A stretch of DNA of 40,910 nucleotides from Candidatus Woesearchaeota archaeon (GCA_018303185.1 JAGVYR010000067.1:1-40910); one strand, 5' to 3'. Shown: positions 31,551 to 39,695, counted from the first letter of the stretch. Notes: generated from the letters alone by a model not told the origin. Translations and numbers: made by a program.

Positions 31551-33650
31551 TCAAGCGGCTTTCTTTAAATAATTTTTTGGAACAGCTTTCATATCTGCCG
31601 AAGCGACAATGGACTCAAATTTCCCCGGAAGCTTTCCGGTCGGATTGACTTTTACGCCGCCGGGCATGCCTGCGTCTTCCTGTGCGGACACGATGTAAGA
31701 CCTTGTGGAGACAAGGTAATCGGCTGCTTCACGGCCGTACCGCTCTGCAAAGCCTGCACGCACAAGCTCCTCTACAGGCTTTGCTGAATTGCTCTCGTTA
31801 AGGTAAATCTTGGCTGAACAGACTCCGCAAGGCTCCTTTTTTCTCTTATCCTCCATATATCTGAGCGTCTTAAGCTCAGCCGCATCCCGGCCATGGCCCA
31901 AGGCAACCATATAATCGCCTGCTCTGGCTGTCATACCCTCCAGTACATTTCCATCACCTTCATATCCCGGGTTGAATCCTCCCGGCAGCCCATGGTAGAA
32001 TCTTTCAGAGTTATCTTTATCAATGAGTTTCTTACCTCTTCTTGACTGTCCTGATTTCTGGTCAAAGTAAGGAACCTCTACTACCTCGACGTTATAGCCC
32101 CGGCTCTGCAGCATATTCCTGATCGCATAAAGCATATTCCTTTCAGAGCCGTGCAGCCCTCTTAGGTCTTGCTCGGTGATTCTTGCTGAAACAGCAACTT
32201 CGTATCCTTTTTCCACTGCTTCTTCAAGCAGATCGCTTATATAGGTTTCATGATCTTTGTCCCCCATATGCGCAGCGGAGGAATCCCTTGCAGCTTGCCC
32301 AAACCTTTCGTAAGAAACTCTATCCATCCATCTGCCTGAAGATGGATTGCTGACAATATGGTCAATGCTGATAATGTTCGATGCAGAACCGGATGCAATA
32401 TTGCCGGCAGGATGCCTTGAATGGGCATATAATTTACTTGACACGGATTCGATAGAGCCGATATTGGATTGGACAGCCCTTTGGTATGGTGCATTTGTGC
32501 CGGTAATTCTGCCGGAATCCGCGCGCATTTCTGTCATTTTAGTTGCCTTCGGCAATGCAGCAGAAGATTCTTTGGAGAAAATTGCTGAATATGCCTTTGG
32601 TTCCTGATAAGCCGCTTCCCTATGAGTGGGCTCGCTGCTTTCATTTTGATGATTAACCTGGGGCTTATATTGTGCCGGGTGTAAAATCGCAGTATCGCGG
32701 CTTTTTTCCAAATCTTTCAGCTTGAAAACAAAAGGCTTTTCGGGAGAATTTTTCTTAAGGAAATTTTGTCGAGTGTATGCATGTTCACGTTGGTTATCAG
32801 CTTTTCTTTGAATTTCACGGTTTTGTGCTATTGGCGAGCTTGCAATTCTTTCATATGGGGCCTGCCGGAATCTTACAGAGTTAGCTGGCCTAAGCCCCAC
32901 AACCACTTTTGCCGTGTAAGCCGAGCTGTGGATTTTATCATGCATAATCCGTGCAGCATAGCGGCTGCTGCTATACGCCGTGAAGGCAGCGTTTTCATTG
33001 TAATATGCAATTACCAATGGGTGCATCCTCTTGGATGGCCTTGCATGCGCTTTTGGCATTGTTGGTGTACTATCTGTCATGTAATCCTGCACTTTTCGCA
33101 AATCTCTTCCTGCCTGCACTTCAAAGTAATGTGCCATATTGGCATAGCCAGGACTCATTGCCTTGTGAGAGGCATGGAAGTGAAGATTAAGCATCCGGGG
33201 CGTGTAAGGCTGGTAAGAAGCATAATCGCTTTGCCTGAAAGAAGAATAAGGCAGGCTTGCAGCCCGGTATTGAAGAAAGGGCATCGGCTGAGCGGCATAA
33301 GCAAAATTTGGATACACTTTTCCTGCTTCCAGAGACACAGCCAGCTGAGGTGAAATTGCCAGCACACTTTCCCTTGCCACCACCCTGGAAATCCCCTGAG
33401 GGGAGGAAAGGAAGTAAATGGATGCTATCACTGCGTCGAGGCTTGGGAAACTCACAGGCTTCTTTAGAGCAGCTTCTTCGGTTTTTCTTGAGTATGAATA
33501 ATCTTCCTTCCTTTCCGGGGCTCCGGCAGACAAAATATCCGGCTGCTTGCTGCCGGACAGGCCCTGAAAATCCCATGCTGCCTGATGGTTAGGTAAAATG
33601 TCCCTTATAACCGCATTTCCCGAAGAAATGCTCTTAGACAGCGCTATCAT
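31551..33650 (-). CDS. 699-aa orphan protein: long disordered Tyr/Ser/Ala-rich region plus C-terminal globular domain
   Basis: I do not recognise any family. There is no signal peptide or membrane helix. Residues 1-460 are low-complexity, rich in Ser, Ala, Tyr, His and Pro, with many basic residues, and are probably disordered (for example YRAASLPYSSFRQSDYASYQ). From about 465 to the end a folded alpha/beta domain is likely: YISDLLEEAVEKGYEVAVSA, then LYAIRNMLQSRGYNVEVVEV, a Gly-rich stretch near FYHGLPGGFNPGYEGDG, and a C-x-x-C in EPCGVCSAKI. A GGTGG lies just before the ATG, and a TATA-like TTTTATAAAAA is near 33670-33680. Composition differs sharply from the neighbouring ribosomal genes. 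Confidence 0.7.
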   Translation of the reverse strand: MIALSKSISSGNAVIRDILPNHQAAWDFQGLSGSKQPDILSAGAPERKEDYSYSRKTEEAALKKPVSFPSLDAVIASIYFLSSPQGISRVVARESVLAISPQLAVSLEAGKVYPNFAYAAQPMPFLQYRAASLPYSSFRQSDYASYQPYTPRMLNLHFHASHKAMSPGYANMAHYFEVQAGRDLRKVQDYMTDSTPTMPKAHARPSKRMHPLVIAYYNENAAFTAYSSSRYAARIMHDKIHSSAYTAKVVVGLRPANSVRFRQAPYERIASSPIAQNREIQRKADNQREHAYTRQNFLKKNSPEKPFVFKLKDLEKSRDTAILHPAQYKPQVNHQNESSEPTHREAAYQEPKAYSAIFSKESSAALPKATKMTEMRADSGRITGTNAPYQRAVQSNIGSIESVSSKLYAHSRHPAGNIASGSASNIISIDHIVSNPSSGRWMDRVSYERFGQAARDSSAAHMGDKDHETYISDLLEEAVEKGYEVAVSARITEQDLRGLHGSERNMLYAIRNMLQSRGYNVEVVEVPYFDQKSGQSRRGKKLIDKDNSERFYHGLPGGFNPGYEGDGNVLEGMTARAGDYMVALGHGRDAAELKTLRYMEDKRKKEPCGVCSAKIYLNESNSAKPVEELVRAGFAERYGREAADYLVSTRSYIVSAQEDAGMPGGVKVNPTGKLPGKFESIVASADMKAVPKNYLKKAA

Positions 33651-33828: not shown

Positions 33829-34947
33829 ATGGAAGGTATGGCTGATTTGCCCAAATATGAAGAAGCCAGAGAACGGCTGAGGCGGCTCATCATGGATCGA
33901 GGGATAAAATGGGGAGAGGGCATGATGCGTGGCGATGTGAGGGCTAAGTGGACTTTTGATTTGAGGGAAGTGCTTTTAACGCCTGAAGGATCTTATCTTT
34001 CTTCGGTACTCTTTTCTGAGATGTTGAAAGGATTTGATTTTGACATGGTAGGCGGCCCCTCGCTGGCTGCAGAAGCCATTGTCTGTCCCCTCATTCTCCA
34101 TCTTCGCAAGAACGGGAAAAACGTCCCCGGCTTTATTGTCAGGAAAGAAGCCAAAAGCTCAGGGCTGATAAAGCTGGTTGAAGGTCCCGTCAATGAGAGA
34201 GCAAAAGTCGTGCTCGTAGACGATGCAATCAACCAGGGCAACAGCAAGTTCAGGAGCATCAATCTCCTGCGCCAGGCCGGATGCGAAGCTGTAGGCGTTG
34301 TGACTTTGGTCGACTTCAGGAATACAGGCTCAAAAAATCTTGAGGAAAGGGGCTTTAAGGTCAAATCAGCTTTTGTCTTAAATGACTTTCCGCTGAATGA
34401 AAACAAATTGTTCATTTACGAAAATGCCTCAGTTACTGAGGCAAAATTTGAGCCTGAAAAGCATTCAAAAGAAGTTCCTGCAATACTTGAGCAATACAGG
34501 GATGATATCAGGGGCAAAATCTTTGTCGATAAAATGGCAGGCATAATATTCTTTGCGCTGTCAGACGGAGTCGCATATGCAATCGACTCTTCAGGAGATG
34601 TGCTGTGGAAAAGGAGACTCGGCATAGAAGTTCATCTTGAGTCCCAGGATGCCAGCATTTTGCTGTTCCGCACAGACAGCTACCGTGTATTTTCCCTTGA
34701 TAAGGGCACAGGAGCAATAAACTGGAGCTATGAAAACAAGAACATGGTTACAGCTGTCGAAATAAATGAATATGGTGTGATTGTCGGATGCGCAAACGGC
34801 TACCTATACTCTCTTGATTCCAGAAGCGGAAAAGTAAGAAAGAGCGCAAAAATTGAAAACGGCAATATATCCGGGGTATTCATGAATGGCAAAGAAATTA
34901 TCGTAGGATGTGAAGATGGAAAGTACTACACTTATGAACAGAACTGA
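33829..34947 (+). CDS. Orotate-phosphoribosyltransferase-like domain fused to a short PQQ-type beta-propeller (protein 1)
   Basis: Residues 1-180 are a type I phosphoribosyltransferase resembling orotate PRTases: FDMVGGPSLAAEA, GFIVRKEAKSSGLIKLVEG and the PRPP loop VVLVDDAINQGNS (about 127-139). The loop keeps both Asp but has NQGNS in place of the usual TTGxS. From about 220 to the end there are three or four beta-propeller blades of PQQ-repeat type (GVAYAIDSSGDVLWKRRL, YLYSLDSRSGKV). There is no signal peptide, so the protein is cytosolic. The ATG chosen fits the TATA box; a TTG four codons upstream is the alternative. The next gene encodes a similar protein and overlaps by 14 nt. Confidence 0.8.
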   Translation: MEGMADLPKYEEARERLRRLIMDRGIKWGEGMMRGDVRAKWTFDLREVLLTPEGSYLSSVLFSEMLKGFDFDMVGGPSLAAEAIVCPLILHLRKNGKNVPGFIVRKEAKSSGLIKLVEGPVNERAKVVLVDDAINQGNSKFRSINLLRQAGCEAVGVVTLVDFRNTGSKNLEERGFKVKSAFVLNDFPLNENKLFIYENASVTEAKFEPEKHSKEVPAILEQYRDDIRGKIFVDKMAGIIFFALSDGVAYAIDSSGDVLWKRRLGIEVHLESQDASILLFRTDSYRVFSLDKGTGAINWSYENKNMVTAVEINEYGVIVGCANGYLYSLDSRSGKVRKSAKIENGNISGVFMNGKEIIVGCEDGKYYTYEQN

Positions 34948-36565
34948 GAAAAATACTGACACACGGCCTGAAAAAACCGCGGAAATGGCAGGGGCAAAAG
35001 AGAGTCTGAAGTCTTTCATACTGAATAATGCAATAGTGTGGGGCTCGGGAGTCGGAGAAGGGGGAAAGCCCCATAAGAGAAGCGTGGATACCAAGCAGAT
35101 ATTCCTGAATCCTGAATATTGCAGCATCGCGGCGCAGCTGTATTATGGCAGGCTGGTGAAATATGATTTTGATTATGTGGGGGGCATGACCATGGCCGCA
35201 CACCTTGTCACAGCCTCTCTTGTCTATCTGGGAAGCCTTTATGGCAAGAATTTTGAAGGGTTTATGATGCGAAAGGAGCAGAAGCACTATGGAATGCTCA
35301 AGCAGATCGAAGGAAATATAAAAAATAACTCAAAAGTTGTAATCGTTGATGATGTTTTAAGCGGCGGCAAATTTGCCATAAGGACAATACAGGCTGTTGA
35401 AGCAATGGGATGCAAGGTTGAAGCGGTCATATGCCTTATAAACTACGAGATTGACGATAATAAATACCTTCTGGAGCAGGGGTATAATGTCGAGAGTATA
35501 TTCATGCAGTCTGAACTGGGGCTGAGTGGAAATTCAAGGCCTAAGCATCCGGGCCTGTACAGGCTGAAGTGGAAGCTTAGAGGCATAAATGCCACTGATT
35601 ACAGTGCGCCTAAGTCGACGCCTTTTGTCAATAAGAACGGAATTTATATCGGCAGCGACCAATCGAAGATAATGGCTGTAGATTTCGACGGGAAAGTGAA
35701 GTGGGAATTCAGGACAGATTTTCATGAGCATGGCGTGCATTCCTCCCCAATTGTTGTAAAGGGAAAAGTCATCTGCCCCGGCTATGACGGAAACCTGTAT
35801 TCTTTGGACGAGACGGATGGCCGCCTTATATGGAAGAGCAGGCTTTCAGACTTTATAGGCGGCTCCCCTGCTTATGACCCTGAGCTGGACAGGATATATA
35901 TAGAGCTTGAGCATGCGTACAGGAGAGGCGCGCTTGCATGCGTGGATTTTGAAACGGGTGAATTGCTTTGGGAATTTACCACGCCGGAATATACGCCCGG
36001 AATCCCGATAATTTTTCAGGACAAGGTGATTTTCGGGTGCAACGACCACTGCCTTTACTGCCTTGACAAGCATGACGGGAAAATGCTGTGGAAATTCAGG
36101 GCTTATGGGGAGCTGAAGAACGGAAAATCAGTGGATGCTGAGACAGGCTTTGCGTATGCGACTTCCTTTGACGGCCACGTATACTGCATAGACGTAGGGA
36201 CTGGAAAGCTTAACTGGAAACGGAAGCTCGGATACAAACTGCATTCAAGGCCTCTCCTGTGGAAAGACAGGGTGATTGTAAGCTCTATATCAAACCAGAT
36301 GACCGCGATGGACAAGAAAAGCGGTAAAGTGCTTTGGTATTTCACAACCAGAGACAGCGTTACAAGCTCTCCTTTTGAGCATGGCGGCATTGTGTATGCC
36401 GGCTCTGCCGACCGCAATATATATGCGATTGGCGCCAAAAGCGGAGAATTCATCTGGAAGTATGAGACTGAAGGAACAATAACTTCCTCCCCCAGAGTTT
36501 TTGGCGATTGCTTGTATGTAGTATCTAACGACAGTTATTTATACTGTTTTGGGAAGAGTAAGTAA
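34934..36565 (+). CDS. Orotate-phosphoribosyltransferase-like domain fused to a full PQQ-type beta-propeller (protein 2)
   Basis: The domain order matches the preceding gene. The PRTase domain (about 20-200) has FDYVGGMTMAAH, GFMMRKEQKHYGMLKQIEG and the PRPP loop VVIVDDVLSGGKF (about 135-147), again altered after the Asp pair. The propeller (about 210-540) has seven or eight blades with the repeated pattern Y-x-L/I-D-x-x-x-G-x-x-x-W-x-x (SLDETDGRLIWKSRL, CLDKHDGKMLWKFRA, AIGAKSGEFIWKYET). There is no signal peptide, which is unusual because PQQ propellers are mostly exported. A longer frame starts eight codons upstream. The coupled tandem suggests the two proteins work together, perhaps as a sensor of PRPP or a nucleotide. 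Confidence 0.82.
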   Translation: MNRTEKNTDTRPEKTAEMAGAKESLKSFILNNAIVWGSGVGEGGKPHKRSVDTKQIFLNPEYCSIAAQLYYGRLVKYDFDYVGGMTMAAHLVTASLVYLGSLYGKNFEGFMMRKEQKHYGMLKQIEGNIKNNSKVVIVDDVLSGGKFAIRTIQAVEAMGCKVEAVICLINYEIDDNKYLLEQGYNVESIFMQSELGLSGNSRPKHPGLYRLKWKLRGINATDYSAPKSTPFVNKNGIYIGSDQSKIMAVDFDGKVKWEFRTDFHEHGVHSSPIVVKGKVICPGYDGNLYSLDETDGRLIWKSRLSDFIGGSPAYDPELDRIYIELEHAYRRGALACVDFETGELLWEFTTPEYTPGIPIIFQDKVIFGCNDHCLYCLDKHDGKMLWKFRAYGELKNGKSVDAETGFAYATSFDGHVYCIDVGTGKLNWKRKLGYKLHSRPLLWKDRVIVSSISNQMTAMDKKSGKVLWYFTTRDSVTSSPFEHGGIVYAGSADRNIYAIGAKSGEFIWKYETEGTITSSPRVFGDCLYVVSNDSYLYCFGKSK

Positions 36566-36566
36566 A

Positions 36567-37664
36567 ATGGAAATTATATTCTGGTTTCTTCCGGCTCTTA
36601 TATTCTTAGGGATTGTAACGTCATATGAAGACATAAAGAAAGGCACCATTAGGAACAAGTGGATAATTTTTTCCCTGGCATATGCAATATCCGCATATAT
36701 GGCAATATCCTACTATTCTATAAAGGCAGGTTTAACGCTGAGAACTGGCTATTTTCTTGAGCTTATCGGCACTGCATTGTTTTCCCTTGCGACTGCATTT
36801 GTCATTTGGCACGCAGGCCTTTGGACTGCAGGCGACGGGAAGCTTTTTTTCGCGTATTCTATATTGGTCCCCTTGGAGGTTTATAGGTATGGCTATATCC
36901 CTTATTTTTCTTCCATCTCCATACTTATCAATACCTTTATTCCAGTGTTCCTTTTCCTCGTATTCCTACTGATTTTCCGTACTTCGCTGAAAGAGAAAAT
37001 TGAATACGGAAAGCAAGCCCTTGAATTCAATAGGATAATGCAACTGCTATTGTATCTTTTCGCCCTGATATGGCCGATAAGGCTGCTTTTTGCCTTCATC
37101 AGACTCCAGCTTAACTATTTCCTTATGATATTTTTGCTTTTTGTGCTGATGACCCAGGCAGAAAAGACTCTTAAGCTGGACATCAGGTACATATTGGGAG
37201 GCATAGCAGTGCTTCGGATGATATTCGACCCTTCCGTCTTTACAGAAATGGCATGGACTGAACTTTTCACCTTCTCTGTCCTTTTTATTGTGCTAAGATT
37301 TTTCATACTGCCCATAGGGTTTAATTATTTTACTGAGAATGTCCCGATCAAAGACCTAAAAGAAGGCATGATGCCCGCTGAGGCAATATTGAGGAAGAAA
37401 GGGGGATATATCAAGATACCCTTGGTGCAGTTCAGCATGCTCTCTTCCCTGAGGCAGACATCTATGAAAAATACTGTGCTTGAACAGACTGCAGAAGGCC
37501 TTACCCGTGACGGGATAGGCAGGATGCAGAAGATGAGACTGCCTTTCAGCAGCATACGGGTGAAGCATACCACAAGCTTTGCACCTTTCCTTTTTGCCGG
37601 TGCGTTTTTGACGATTGCCGTGCAGGGGAATTTTATCGTTCTTCTGATTAGCCTGTTTTTGTGA
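36567..37664 (+). CDS. A24-type prepilin/preflagellin peptidase-like membrane protein
   Basis: The 365-residue multi-pass membrane protein has the two aspartates of A24 aspartyl peptidases: Asp22 in SYEDIKKGTIRNKW and Asp90 in TAGDGKLFF (the GxGD-type site). These enzymes cut signal peptides from pilin- and archaellin-like proteins at the inner face of the membrane. After the first roughly 100 residues come several more helices and a soluble segment (about 255-330, PIKDLKEGMMPAEAILRKKGG), longer than in a simple FlaK/PibD. It starts two nt after the propeller gene, so it is probably in the same operon. A frame extending six codons upstream overlaps that gene. Confidence 0.78.
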   Translation: MEIIFWFLPALIFLGIVTSYEDIKKGTIRNKWIIFSLAYAISAYMAISYYSIKAGLTLRTGYFLELIGTALFSLATAFVIWHAGLWTAGDGKLFFAYSILVPLEVYRYGYIPYFSSISILINTFIPVFLFLVFLLIFRTSLKEKIEYGKQALEFNRIMQLLLYLFALIWPIRLLFAFIRLQLNYFLMIFLLFVLMTQAEKTLKLDIRYILGGIAVLRMIFDPSVFTEMAWTELFTFSVLFIVLRFFILPIGFNYFTENVPIKDLKEGMMPAEAILRKKGGYIKIPLVQFSMLSSLRQTSMKNTVLEQTAEGLTRDGIGRMQKMRLPFSSIRVKHTTSFAPFLFAGAFLTIAVQGNFIVLLISLFL

Positions 37665-37704: not shown

Positions 37705-38943
37705 TCACTGAATCATGAATTGTTCTATGCTCTGGGAAAAGCAGTTTGGCCTCTTTGCAGCCTCTTCCTGTATTAATGCTATATTTTCCTCGGGAATCGG
37801 CACATAATATGGCTTAAGTATGTCTGTCTTTTCAGTAATCTTCCCTTCCTTTAGGAGCTGATAGTAAAGAGGCGTCTTTTTGTAAACCCGTAGGCCTATG
37901 CAGACGTCAACCCTGTCAGGCTTCAGCATGTCAATATTGCGGAAACTGCCCAGAATATTCCCCCTTTTTTCCATCGGGCTTCCGAACAGCAGGTTGTAGT
38001 TCACCTTGATGCCGTTCTTATGGCATAATTCAGTGGCCCTCTTTACATCCCCTACGGTGAACATCTTTTGGAGGTATCTTAAGGTAGCGTCATCAAGGCT
38101 GTCCACGCCGAGATTAACGTATTTTTTCCCTGATTTAAAGAGCTCTTGGAAAAATTCATCAGTGAACATCCTTGGGTGCGGATTAAGGTAGGCATCCCAG
38201 TTTATCCTTAGCTGCTCTTCGTTTAAAATCTTCAGTATCTTAATTGCGTGCCATGCAGGAACATTGAAGTTTGCGTCCACAAAGAAGATGTTCATTGTGC
38301 CTTTCTTGACAAGATTCCTTATTTCATCAACAACTTCAGAGGGCTCACGAAGCTTTGTCCTTTTTCCGTCAACAGCAGGATAGTCGCAGTAGGTGCACTC
38401 GAAAGGGCAGCCGAATTTAGTGGCAACGCCTATCATCGTGCCCTTTTTTTCATAGATTGAGTGGTTTATGAGGTTTCTCTTAAAGCTGCCCTGCACATAA
38501 TCATCTAAATCAGCAATAATCTTTGGAACCTCTTCGCCCTTTTCCAGCTTACTCAACAAGTGTTCCATCGCCCTGAATCCTTTTGTCGCGATGGCTATGT
38601 CAGCGCCCACGTAATTTATCACCTCTTCCGGCATCAGGTTTACAGCAGTCCCTCCGACCATTATTTTTGCTTCGCTTATCCCTTTTAATTCTGCAATCTG
38701 TTCCCTGATGTCATCAAGGTAAAACTGCTGGTTGAAGAACATAGTATTGTCAAAATTCCTTATCTGGAGGCCTATCAACTGCGGGTTGAAGGCGATTACC
38801 TCTTCTTTCAGGTCAACCTGCTCAATCTGGTCTATCAGTTTGACTGTATAGCCTTTCTTAATGAGCTGTTCGGCAGTGTATTCAAGGCCCACAGGAGCAA
38901 TAGGGGGCTTGAGCACATTGGGGTTTATAAGCAGGATTCTCAT
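37705..38943 (-). CDS. B12-binding domain radical SAM enzyme
   Basis: The N-terminal Rossmann-like domain (1-135) resembles cobalamin-binding domains: RILLINPN, then GLEYTAEQLIKKGYTVKLID and AKIMVGGTAVNLMPEEVI; the DxHxxG histidine loop is not evident. The radical SAM domain has the iron-sulfur motif C179-x3-C183-x2-C186 in FGCPFECTYCDYP and later GVDSLDDATLRYLQK. This class methylates or rearranges varied substrates, often lipids or cofactors. A TATA-like element at 38963-38976 sits 26 bp before the ATG. The methyltransferase gene upstream, on the same strand, may act on the same product. Confidence 0.85.
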   Translation of the reverse strand: MRILLINPNVLKPPIAPVGLEYTAEQLIKKGYTVKLIDQIEQVDLKEEVIAFNPQLIGLQIRNFDNTMFFNQQFYLDDIREQIAELKGISEAKIMVGGTAVNLMPEEVINYVGADIAIATKGFRAMEHLLSKLEKGEEVPKIIADLDDYVQGSFKRNLINHSIYEKKGTMIGVATKFGCPFECTYCDYPAVDGKRTKLREPSEVVDEIRNLVKKGTMNIFFVDANFNVPAWHAIKILKILNEEQLRINWDAYLNPHPRMFTDEFFQELFKSGKKYVNLGVDSLDDATLRYLQKMFTVGDVKRATELCHKNGIKVNYNLLFGSPMEKRGNILGSFRNIDMLKPDRVDVCIGLRVYKKTPLYYQLLKEGKITEKTDILKPYYVPIPEENIALIQEEAAKRPNCFSQSIEQFMIQ

Positions 38944-39005: not shown

Positions 39006-39695
39006 CTAATGCCAGAATATAGTATCCTTTCCTGCTGAGTTCCTTAAGCCAGAACTGCCATGCCTGTTCCTGAGAACTAGTATAAGCCGCCTGTCCTTGT
39101 TTTTTTTCGGAGGCTCAAAAGTATCTTTCTCGATGACATCATAGCCCGTTTTCTCTGCAGTCTCGATAGTCTCGCGGATGCTTTTCGGCCTTTTGCCGGA
39201 CATGAGCCGGGACAGGCCGTAGTTTATCACATTGTTGATGAATATAATTCCCTCTGCCTTTATTATGGCCTTAAGCTCCAGCAGGAAGGGCTGGTAGTCC
39301 ATATAATTCAGCACCTGCGAAATGATAACAGAGTCAAAAAGCCCATCTTCATTCCTCTCCTTGCTGCAAAGAGACAAAAACTGCAGCGGGTTGTCCGCCC
39401 TGGATATAAAAAAGATATTTTCGCCGTATTTTTCCTTTAGATATCTTAAAGCATGGACATCATTTTCCCAATAGGAGATTTTCGCATCTGGGAATGATTC
39501 CTGCGTTATCAATGGATGGAAGAACGGGCCTATCTCAAGAATCCTGTCCCCTGCCCCATTCCTGTACTTTTCTAAAAAAGGTAGGAGAGCTTTGCTTCCT
39601 TCCACCATCCTTCTTCTTGCATCAGGGCCGAGCTCTCCCTTCGCTGGATTGTCTTCCACCGGCCATCCCGGCCAGTCAAGGTCTTTTGTGTCCAT
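39006..39695 (-). CDS. Class I SAM-dependent methyltransferase
   Basis: The 229-residue cytosolic protein has motif I DRILEIGPFFHPL (about 50-62), a motif II-like acidic strand end SYWENDVHALRYL, and motif IV-like FDSVIISQVLNYMDY. The last 25 residues are basic and Gly/Ser-rich. The substrate is unknown. Its TATA box (39717-39728) lies about 28 bp before the ATG. A gap of 62 bp separates it from the radical SAM gene downstream, which has its own TATA-like element. Confidence 0.85.
   Translation of the reverse strand: MDTKDLDWPGWPVEDNPAKGELGPDARRRMVEGSKALLPFLEKYRNGAGDRILEIGPFFHPLITQESFPDAKISYWENDVHALRYLKEKYGENIFFISRADNPLQFLSLCSKERNEDGLFDSVIISQVLNYMDYQPFLLELKAIIKAEGIIFINNVINYGLSRLMSGKRPKSIRETIETAEKTGYDVIEKDTFEPPKKNKDRRLILVLRNRHGSSGLRNSAGKDTIFWH

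Follow-up and report, generated by a model that had tools for sequence, protein, structure and literature searches.

The PRT-propeller locus

Two neighbouring genes in the window (the whole stretch of 40,910 nucleotides of Candidatus Woesearchaeota archaeon DNA that was analysed, GCA_018303185.1 JAGVYR010000067.1:1-40910) each encode a domain resembling orotate phosphoribosyltransferase (OPRT) joined to a PQQ-type propeller. Proteins of this architecture are called PRT-propellers here, and the two genes PRT1 and PRT2. Such a pair, one short and one full, had been proposed in an initial annotation made from the sequence alone, and it was borne out by TIGR00336 (the pyrE model) and PQQ_2 matches and by AlphaFold2 models of both products (Table 1). 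PRT1 (372 aa) matched TIGR00336 and PQQ_2 with E=7e-20 and E=3e-8, respectively, and also Beta-prop_ACSF4, whereas the values for PRT2 (525-551 aa, depending on the start chosen) were E=1e-18 and E=3e-37. The overlap then reported between both genes holds if PRT2 begins at ATG 34916, as in its orthologues, and is lost with the alternative start at 34985. The membrane A24 peptidase placed directly downstream was confirmed by Arc_PepC and Peptidase_A24 matches; its ATG (36567) lies one base past the PRT2 stop, and the protein keeps the SYEDIKKGTIRNKW and WTAGDGKLF motifs.

Table 1. Features of the PRT-propeller locus and of the genes that follow it (positions counted from the first letter of the window)
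Feature	Position	Strand	Basis
PRT1: OPRT-like domain (~33829-34416) and four-blade half propeller (~34507-34944)	33829..34947	+	family matches, AlphaFold2
PRT1 loop for phosphoribosyl pyrophosphate (PRPP), VVLVDDAINQGNS, pattern intact	34207..34245	+	alignment of 40 PRT-propellers
PRT2: OPRT-like domain (34988-35542) and complete eight-bladed PQQ-type propeller (35555-36562)	34916..36565	+	family matches, AlphaFold2
PRT2 PRPP loop, VVIVDDVLSGGKF, degenerate	35336..35374	+	alignment of 40 PRT-propellers
A24 (type IV prepilin peptidase family) membrane peptidase, Hxs-associated clade	36567..37664	+	PF06819 (Arc_PepC), PF01478 (Peptidase_A24)
Convergently oriented neighbour, a B12-binding radical SAM protein that may act in tailoring	37705..38943	-	PF04055, PF02310
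229-aa protein, methyltransferase-like by eye; possible tailoring partner, weak	39006..39695	-	sequence inspection only

Predicted structures and distribution

The model of PRT2 (mean pLDDT 93.8, pTM 0.90) displayed an eight-bladed propeller, for which the nearest structures were the designed protein Cake8 (TMt 0.94) and BamB. In the model of PRT1 (mean pLDDT 83.9) the OPRT fold reached a TM of 0.91 to the OPRTs of M. tuberculosis and C. diphtheriae; the half propeller, of around four blades, was predicted at lower confidence, and its matches included Ika4, a designed four-bladed protein. The resemblance of these proteins to phosphoribosyltransferases (PRTases) and propellers is beyond chance.

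Relatives were obtained by an alignment-based scan of genome contigs, since a scan with a single protein gave no match. Full-length PRT-propellers were present in 5 of the 353 genomes of the window's order, as a tandem pair in the window and in genomes G004 and G009, as one copy in G003, and as two radical SAM fusions in G057. The closest proteins belong to Candidatus Woesearchaeota. Beyond archaea, the same architecture was found in Patescibacteria, Eremiobacterota, Burkholderia, Granulicella and other Acidobacteria, Caulobacterales, and Myxococcota. A tblastn search of plasmids returned propeller matches only (kinases and other PQQ proteins) and no PRT fusion.

PRPP loops and the relation to orotate phosphoribosyltransferase

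Both PRPP loops had been described as altered. This stood for PRT2, whose DDVLSGGKF is off the PRPP-loop pattern, but not for PRT1, whose DDAINQGNS fits it. The loop was intact in 32 of the 40 aligned PRT-propellers; residues D131, D132, and G137 of the PRT1 loop were invariant or nearly so, and the Arg, Lys, Glu-Gly, and Asp-Asp positions of an OPRT-like site were conserved at 90-100%. On these sequence grounds, PRPP binding by the members with an intact loop is likely.

Intact and degenerate loops were distributed in a regular way among the archaeal copies. PRT1 had the intact loop and PRT2 the degenerate one in all three tandem pairs (window, G004, and G009), and one of the two copies of G057 was also degenerate, so that one intact loop, and no more, is present in every archaeal pair. 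The degenerate copies fell into separate clades of the tree, which indicated that loop loss happened at least twice. This repeated combination of one live and one dead copy suggests heteromers. OPRT dimers have active sites shared by the two subunits (cf. the title of PDB 1oro).

The similarity to TIGR00336 would be accounted for if the PRT-propellers were diverged OPRTs serving pyrimidine synthesis. PRT1 and PRT2, however, scored 71.4 and 67.4 bits, without reaching the pyrE cut-off of 106.8, and the window's genome carries a separate PyrE over that cut-off (133.3 bits) beside PyrC- and PyrF-like genes. This indicated that PRT1 and PRT2 are not the housekeeping OPRT, and the explanation, already largely refuted, is hardly tenable.

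Archaeal context: A24 peptidases and Hxs systems

The linkage to the peptidase was conserved, an A24 gene lying within ~5 kb of a PRT-propeller in each of the five archaeal genomes with PRT-propellers. Most A24 genes of these archaea were found in the neighbourhood of His-Xaa-Ser (Hxs) systems, whose components HxsA/B/C/D (NCBIfam TIGR03976-03978, NF038309/38313) are attributed to Haft and Basu in PMC9062424. Among 22 substantial A24 genes across 59 relatives, 15 were at 1 kb or less from an HxsB homologue, five were near a PRT-propeller, and one belonged to both groups; A24-hxsD-hxsB appeared as a recurrent unit. The window peptidase was 46% identical to that of the hxsB-hxsD locus of G003 and belongs to the A24 family neighbouring hxsD-hxsB; the "Hxs-associated A24" clade is one defined in this analysis.

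Hxs components also accompanied the PRT-propellers themselves. The G003 locus (L038) contained, together with the PRT-propeller and the A24 gene, a TPR gene, an HxsA3-like protein, HxsB (437 bits, cut-off 370), and HxsD (49.2 bits, cut-off 50); both PRT-propellers of G057 were fused to HxsC-like radical SAM domains (best 96 bits, cut-off 268), and HxsD-like proteins were situated beside the pairs of G004 and G009 (L035 and L036, respectively). In the window's genome hxsB (386 bits, over cut-off) and hxsD occurred with a TPR gene on another contig, C44. Similarity to HxsA3/HxsA4, below cut-off, was obtained in L038 and L158. A prepilin-like leader (consensus EEG|KISKQS followed by a hydrophobic stretch) was present in seven HxsA-like proteins near A24 in 25 loci and in none of the proteins of 60 control loci (1029 open reading frames, ORFs). 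The archaeal A24 peptidase is a component of Hxs radical SAM systems. No YcaO was recognised in the window or in the other archaeal PRT-propeller loci.

Control of pilus assembly had been suggested earlier; such control, of type IV pili or of the archaellum through the A24 peptidase, agrees with the family identity of this enzyme, with the prepilin-like character of the HxsA leaders, and with the genes upstream in L038, for a pilin-like protein and for an ATPase judged PilB-like by eye. Nevertheless, the A24 clade consistently adjoins hxsD-hxsB and not pilus genes, and no A24 homologue was detected in bacterial PRT-propeller loci; with the peptidase belonging to Hxs loci, we consider pilus control quite improbable.

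Two further observations concern these archaeal loci. A 212-aa protein of L158 (3200-3838, minus strand) with a prepilin-like leader presented ~42 His-Xaa-Ser/Thr repeats and adjoined A24 and HxsC-like radical SAM genes. In G004 (L035 11750-12313) and G009 (L036 9443-10009) a TlpA/ResA-like thioredoxin followed the PRT-propeller pair, and then M23 peptidase and TPR genes.

Bacterial context

PRT-propellers of Patescibacteria adjoined YcaO/SagD-like genes (217.9 bits, cut-off 219.25) and often SagB genes (over cut-off). When coordinates were compared by hand, 17 of the 19 YcaO genes of these genomes were located in a PRT-propeller locus. In an order-wide sample of 297 genomes, 14 had a PRT-propeller, 25 had YcaO, and nine had both (expected ~1.2; p=7e-8), this probability ignoring phylogeny and the sample including the genomes which first prompted the idea. 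Other partners were an Asp/Asn beta-hydroxylase, adjacent to the PRT-propeller in L059 and fused to it in L081, DUF6065 in the L079 locus, and AMMECR1, fused at the C-terminus in L059 (9998-13246) and, just below cut-off, in L064 (9914-12676). The C-terminal region of the L059 protein also gave weak matches of alpha/alpha-toroid type, recalling AmmeMemoRadiSam systems. The simplest arrangement was an operon of Burkholderia composed of a PRT-propeller-AMMECR1 protein, a double-glycine-leader peptide with a Gly/Asp-rich tail, an Rce1-like protease, HlyD, a C39-ABC exporter, and an outer-membrane protein, in which no other modifying enzyme was recognised.

The gene context is one of peptide or protein modification: archaeal PRT-propellers accompany Hxs systems, those of Patescibacteria accompany YcaO/SagB, and other loci feature a beta-hydroxylase or a C39 exporter. 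It lends no support to two roles as they were initially advanced, a conflict system and nucleotide-sensing regulation. A PRPP or nucleotide sensor could still gate a modification pathway according to nucleotide state. PyrR and PurR are precedents for PRTase-fold sensors, and in L062 (5724-11548, Doudnabacteria) the PRT-propeller is directly downstream of PRPP synthetase, PyrE, PyrF, and PyrD. This was, however, the only such case, the partners in nearly all loci being modification enzymes and not nucleotide genes, and the PRT-propellers have no DNA- or RNA-binding domain; we regard gating of this kind as unlikely.

Substrate-like proteins

Exported or membrane-anchored proteins rich in Gly, Asp, Glu, Cys, and Ser were enriched near the PRT-propellers of Patescibacteria (16 of 440 vs. 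4 of 608 control ORFs; p=8e-4), and likewise near those of other bacteria (8 of 176 vs. 1 of 373 control ORFs), the definition of a rich tract having been chosen after examples had been viewed. Two candidate signatures were discarded: a GGDGG tract specific to PRT loci, as the DNA pattern occurs elsewhere in the genomes, and conservation of an HADxP signal among Patescibacteria precursors, which failed as a statistic (3 vs. 1). Hint/intein-like domains appeared within Gly/Asp-rich substrate-like proteins of both archaeal and Patescibacteria loci (L036 13392-15341, L065 3963-4883, and, by eye, L083 12420-13433).

Neighbouring genes in the window

The B12-binding radical SAM protein scored 284 bits to TIGR04072, below the cut-off of 360, and its relatives clustered with ORFs of L037 and L048. 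The 229-aa protein had no Pfam family match. At the contig end (39837-40762), an MNT-like nucleotidyltransferase (PF01909) followed by a HepT-like protein probably forms an MNT/HepT toxin-antitoxin pair; a similar pair was found at L048 1-993. Divergent from PRT1, a low-complexity ORF of 699 aa (31551-33650, minus strand) had neither a family match nor a relative in any of the loci compared.

Proposed function

We read PRT1 and PRT2 as PRPP-binding maturation proteins of a peptide- or protein-modification system similar to those of ribosomally synthesized and post-translationally modified peptides (RiPPs), and not as part of nucleotide metabolism; to this we give about an even chance. In Woesearchaeota the system would be a radical SAM system of Hxs type, with substrates bearing the prepilin-like leader. 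As HxsA-like proteins near A24 carry this leader, the adjacent peptidase is the presumed processing enzyme and would cleave it. Since an OPRT active site is shared between subunits, the OPRT-like domains of PRT1 and PRT2 probably assemble into a hetero-oligomer; PRT1 would contribute the live PRPP site, and PRT2 a second half site together with the complete propeller, which may act as a platform holding the substrate. The most likely role would be PRPP binding that serves either to modify the substrate or to ready it for a partner (HxsB/C, YcaO/SagB, or beta-hydroxylase). A covalent PRPP-dependent modification of the substrate would be plausible. More tentatively, the PRT-propellers could be the first PRPP-dependent peptide-modifying enzymes, in which an OPRT-like heteromer of a live and a dead subunit would carry out phosphoribosyl transfer, or use PRPP in another way, on precursors of Gly/Asp-rich or His-Xaa-Ser type that the propeller holds, in archaea and bacteria alike; we think this possible, although doubtful.

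Several results weigh against a maturation role. No HxsB, HxsD, or recognised substrate was found in the window, and with hxsB and hxsD on a different contig its Hxs linkage is one of family and not of locus; G004 and G009 lacked an HxsB over cut-off. Around one third of the Patescibacteria genomes with PRT-propellers had no YcaO. The GDGGDG DNA pattern occurred at ~15 places in these genomes, only two of them in PRT loci, and this, together with the post hoc definition of the tracts, makes the enrichment of substrate-like proteins supporting but not decisive. Finally, the His of the OPRT catalytic loop was not conserved in PRT-propellers, and the chemistry of OPRT is thus unlikely to be retained unchanged.

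The same proteins could be non-catalytic scaffolds or chaperones that present the substrate, in the manner of BamB or of an RRE partner, with the PRTase fold as a structural or dimerisation module. Indeed, no part of PRT2 is better preserved than the propeller, BamB is a close structural match, PRT2 paralogues have dead loops, and no partner protein for YcaO, which these enzymes often require, was recognised in Patescibacteria loci. A pure scaffold, however, would need neither the PRPP loop and the OPRT-like R, K, and D-D residues, kept in 32 of 40 PRT-propellers, nor the live copy that each archaeal pair always retains, and we assign to scaffolding a minor share of the probability.

If PRT1 and PRT2 are maturation proteins, a family common to ultra-small archaea and bacteria would tie together several otherwise unrelated peptide-modification chemistries, and would suggest a PRPP-using step, of which none is known in peptide natural-product pathways. 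The association of archaeal Hxs systems with a dedicated prepilin-type peptidase points to a possible export or surface route for their products.

Comparison with known systems

The initial annotation knew of no pathway with this set of genes, and we found no description of the combination in the open-licence papers searched. PRT-propellers have in common with PyrE the fold, YxD-like and RKxxK motifs, and the PRPP loop, but differ from it in the fused propeller, the score below the pyrE cut-off, the lost catalytic-loop His, and the coexistence with a separate PyrE. The propeller fold of PRT2 is that of BamB and other PQQ-type eight-bladed propellers, including the designed Cake8; unlike BamB, PRT-propellers have a fused PRTase and a conserved GLEFGL..KRGG hairpin of their own, and no export signal was recognised in them. 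The Patescibacteria loci share YcaO, SagB, and Gly/Cys/Ser-rich small proteins with thiazole/oxazole-modified microcin (TOMM) or linear azole-containing peptide (LAP) systems of the microcin B17 and streptolysin S type, whereas no E1-like partner was recognised in them, a PRT-propeller being present instead, and the YcaO tested was just below the SagD cut-off. With described Hxs systems the archaeal loci share HxsB, HxsD, and HxsA-like proteins, in or near them, and the HxsC-like radical SAM domain fused in G057; they add two elements not found described in the open-licence papers searched, the PRTase-propeller and a dedicated peptidase of the A24 family, the latter with HxsA leaders of prepilin-like type. 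The host systems, Hxs and TOMM, are thus of known kinds, and the PRT-propeller is the component that appears to be new.

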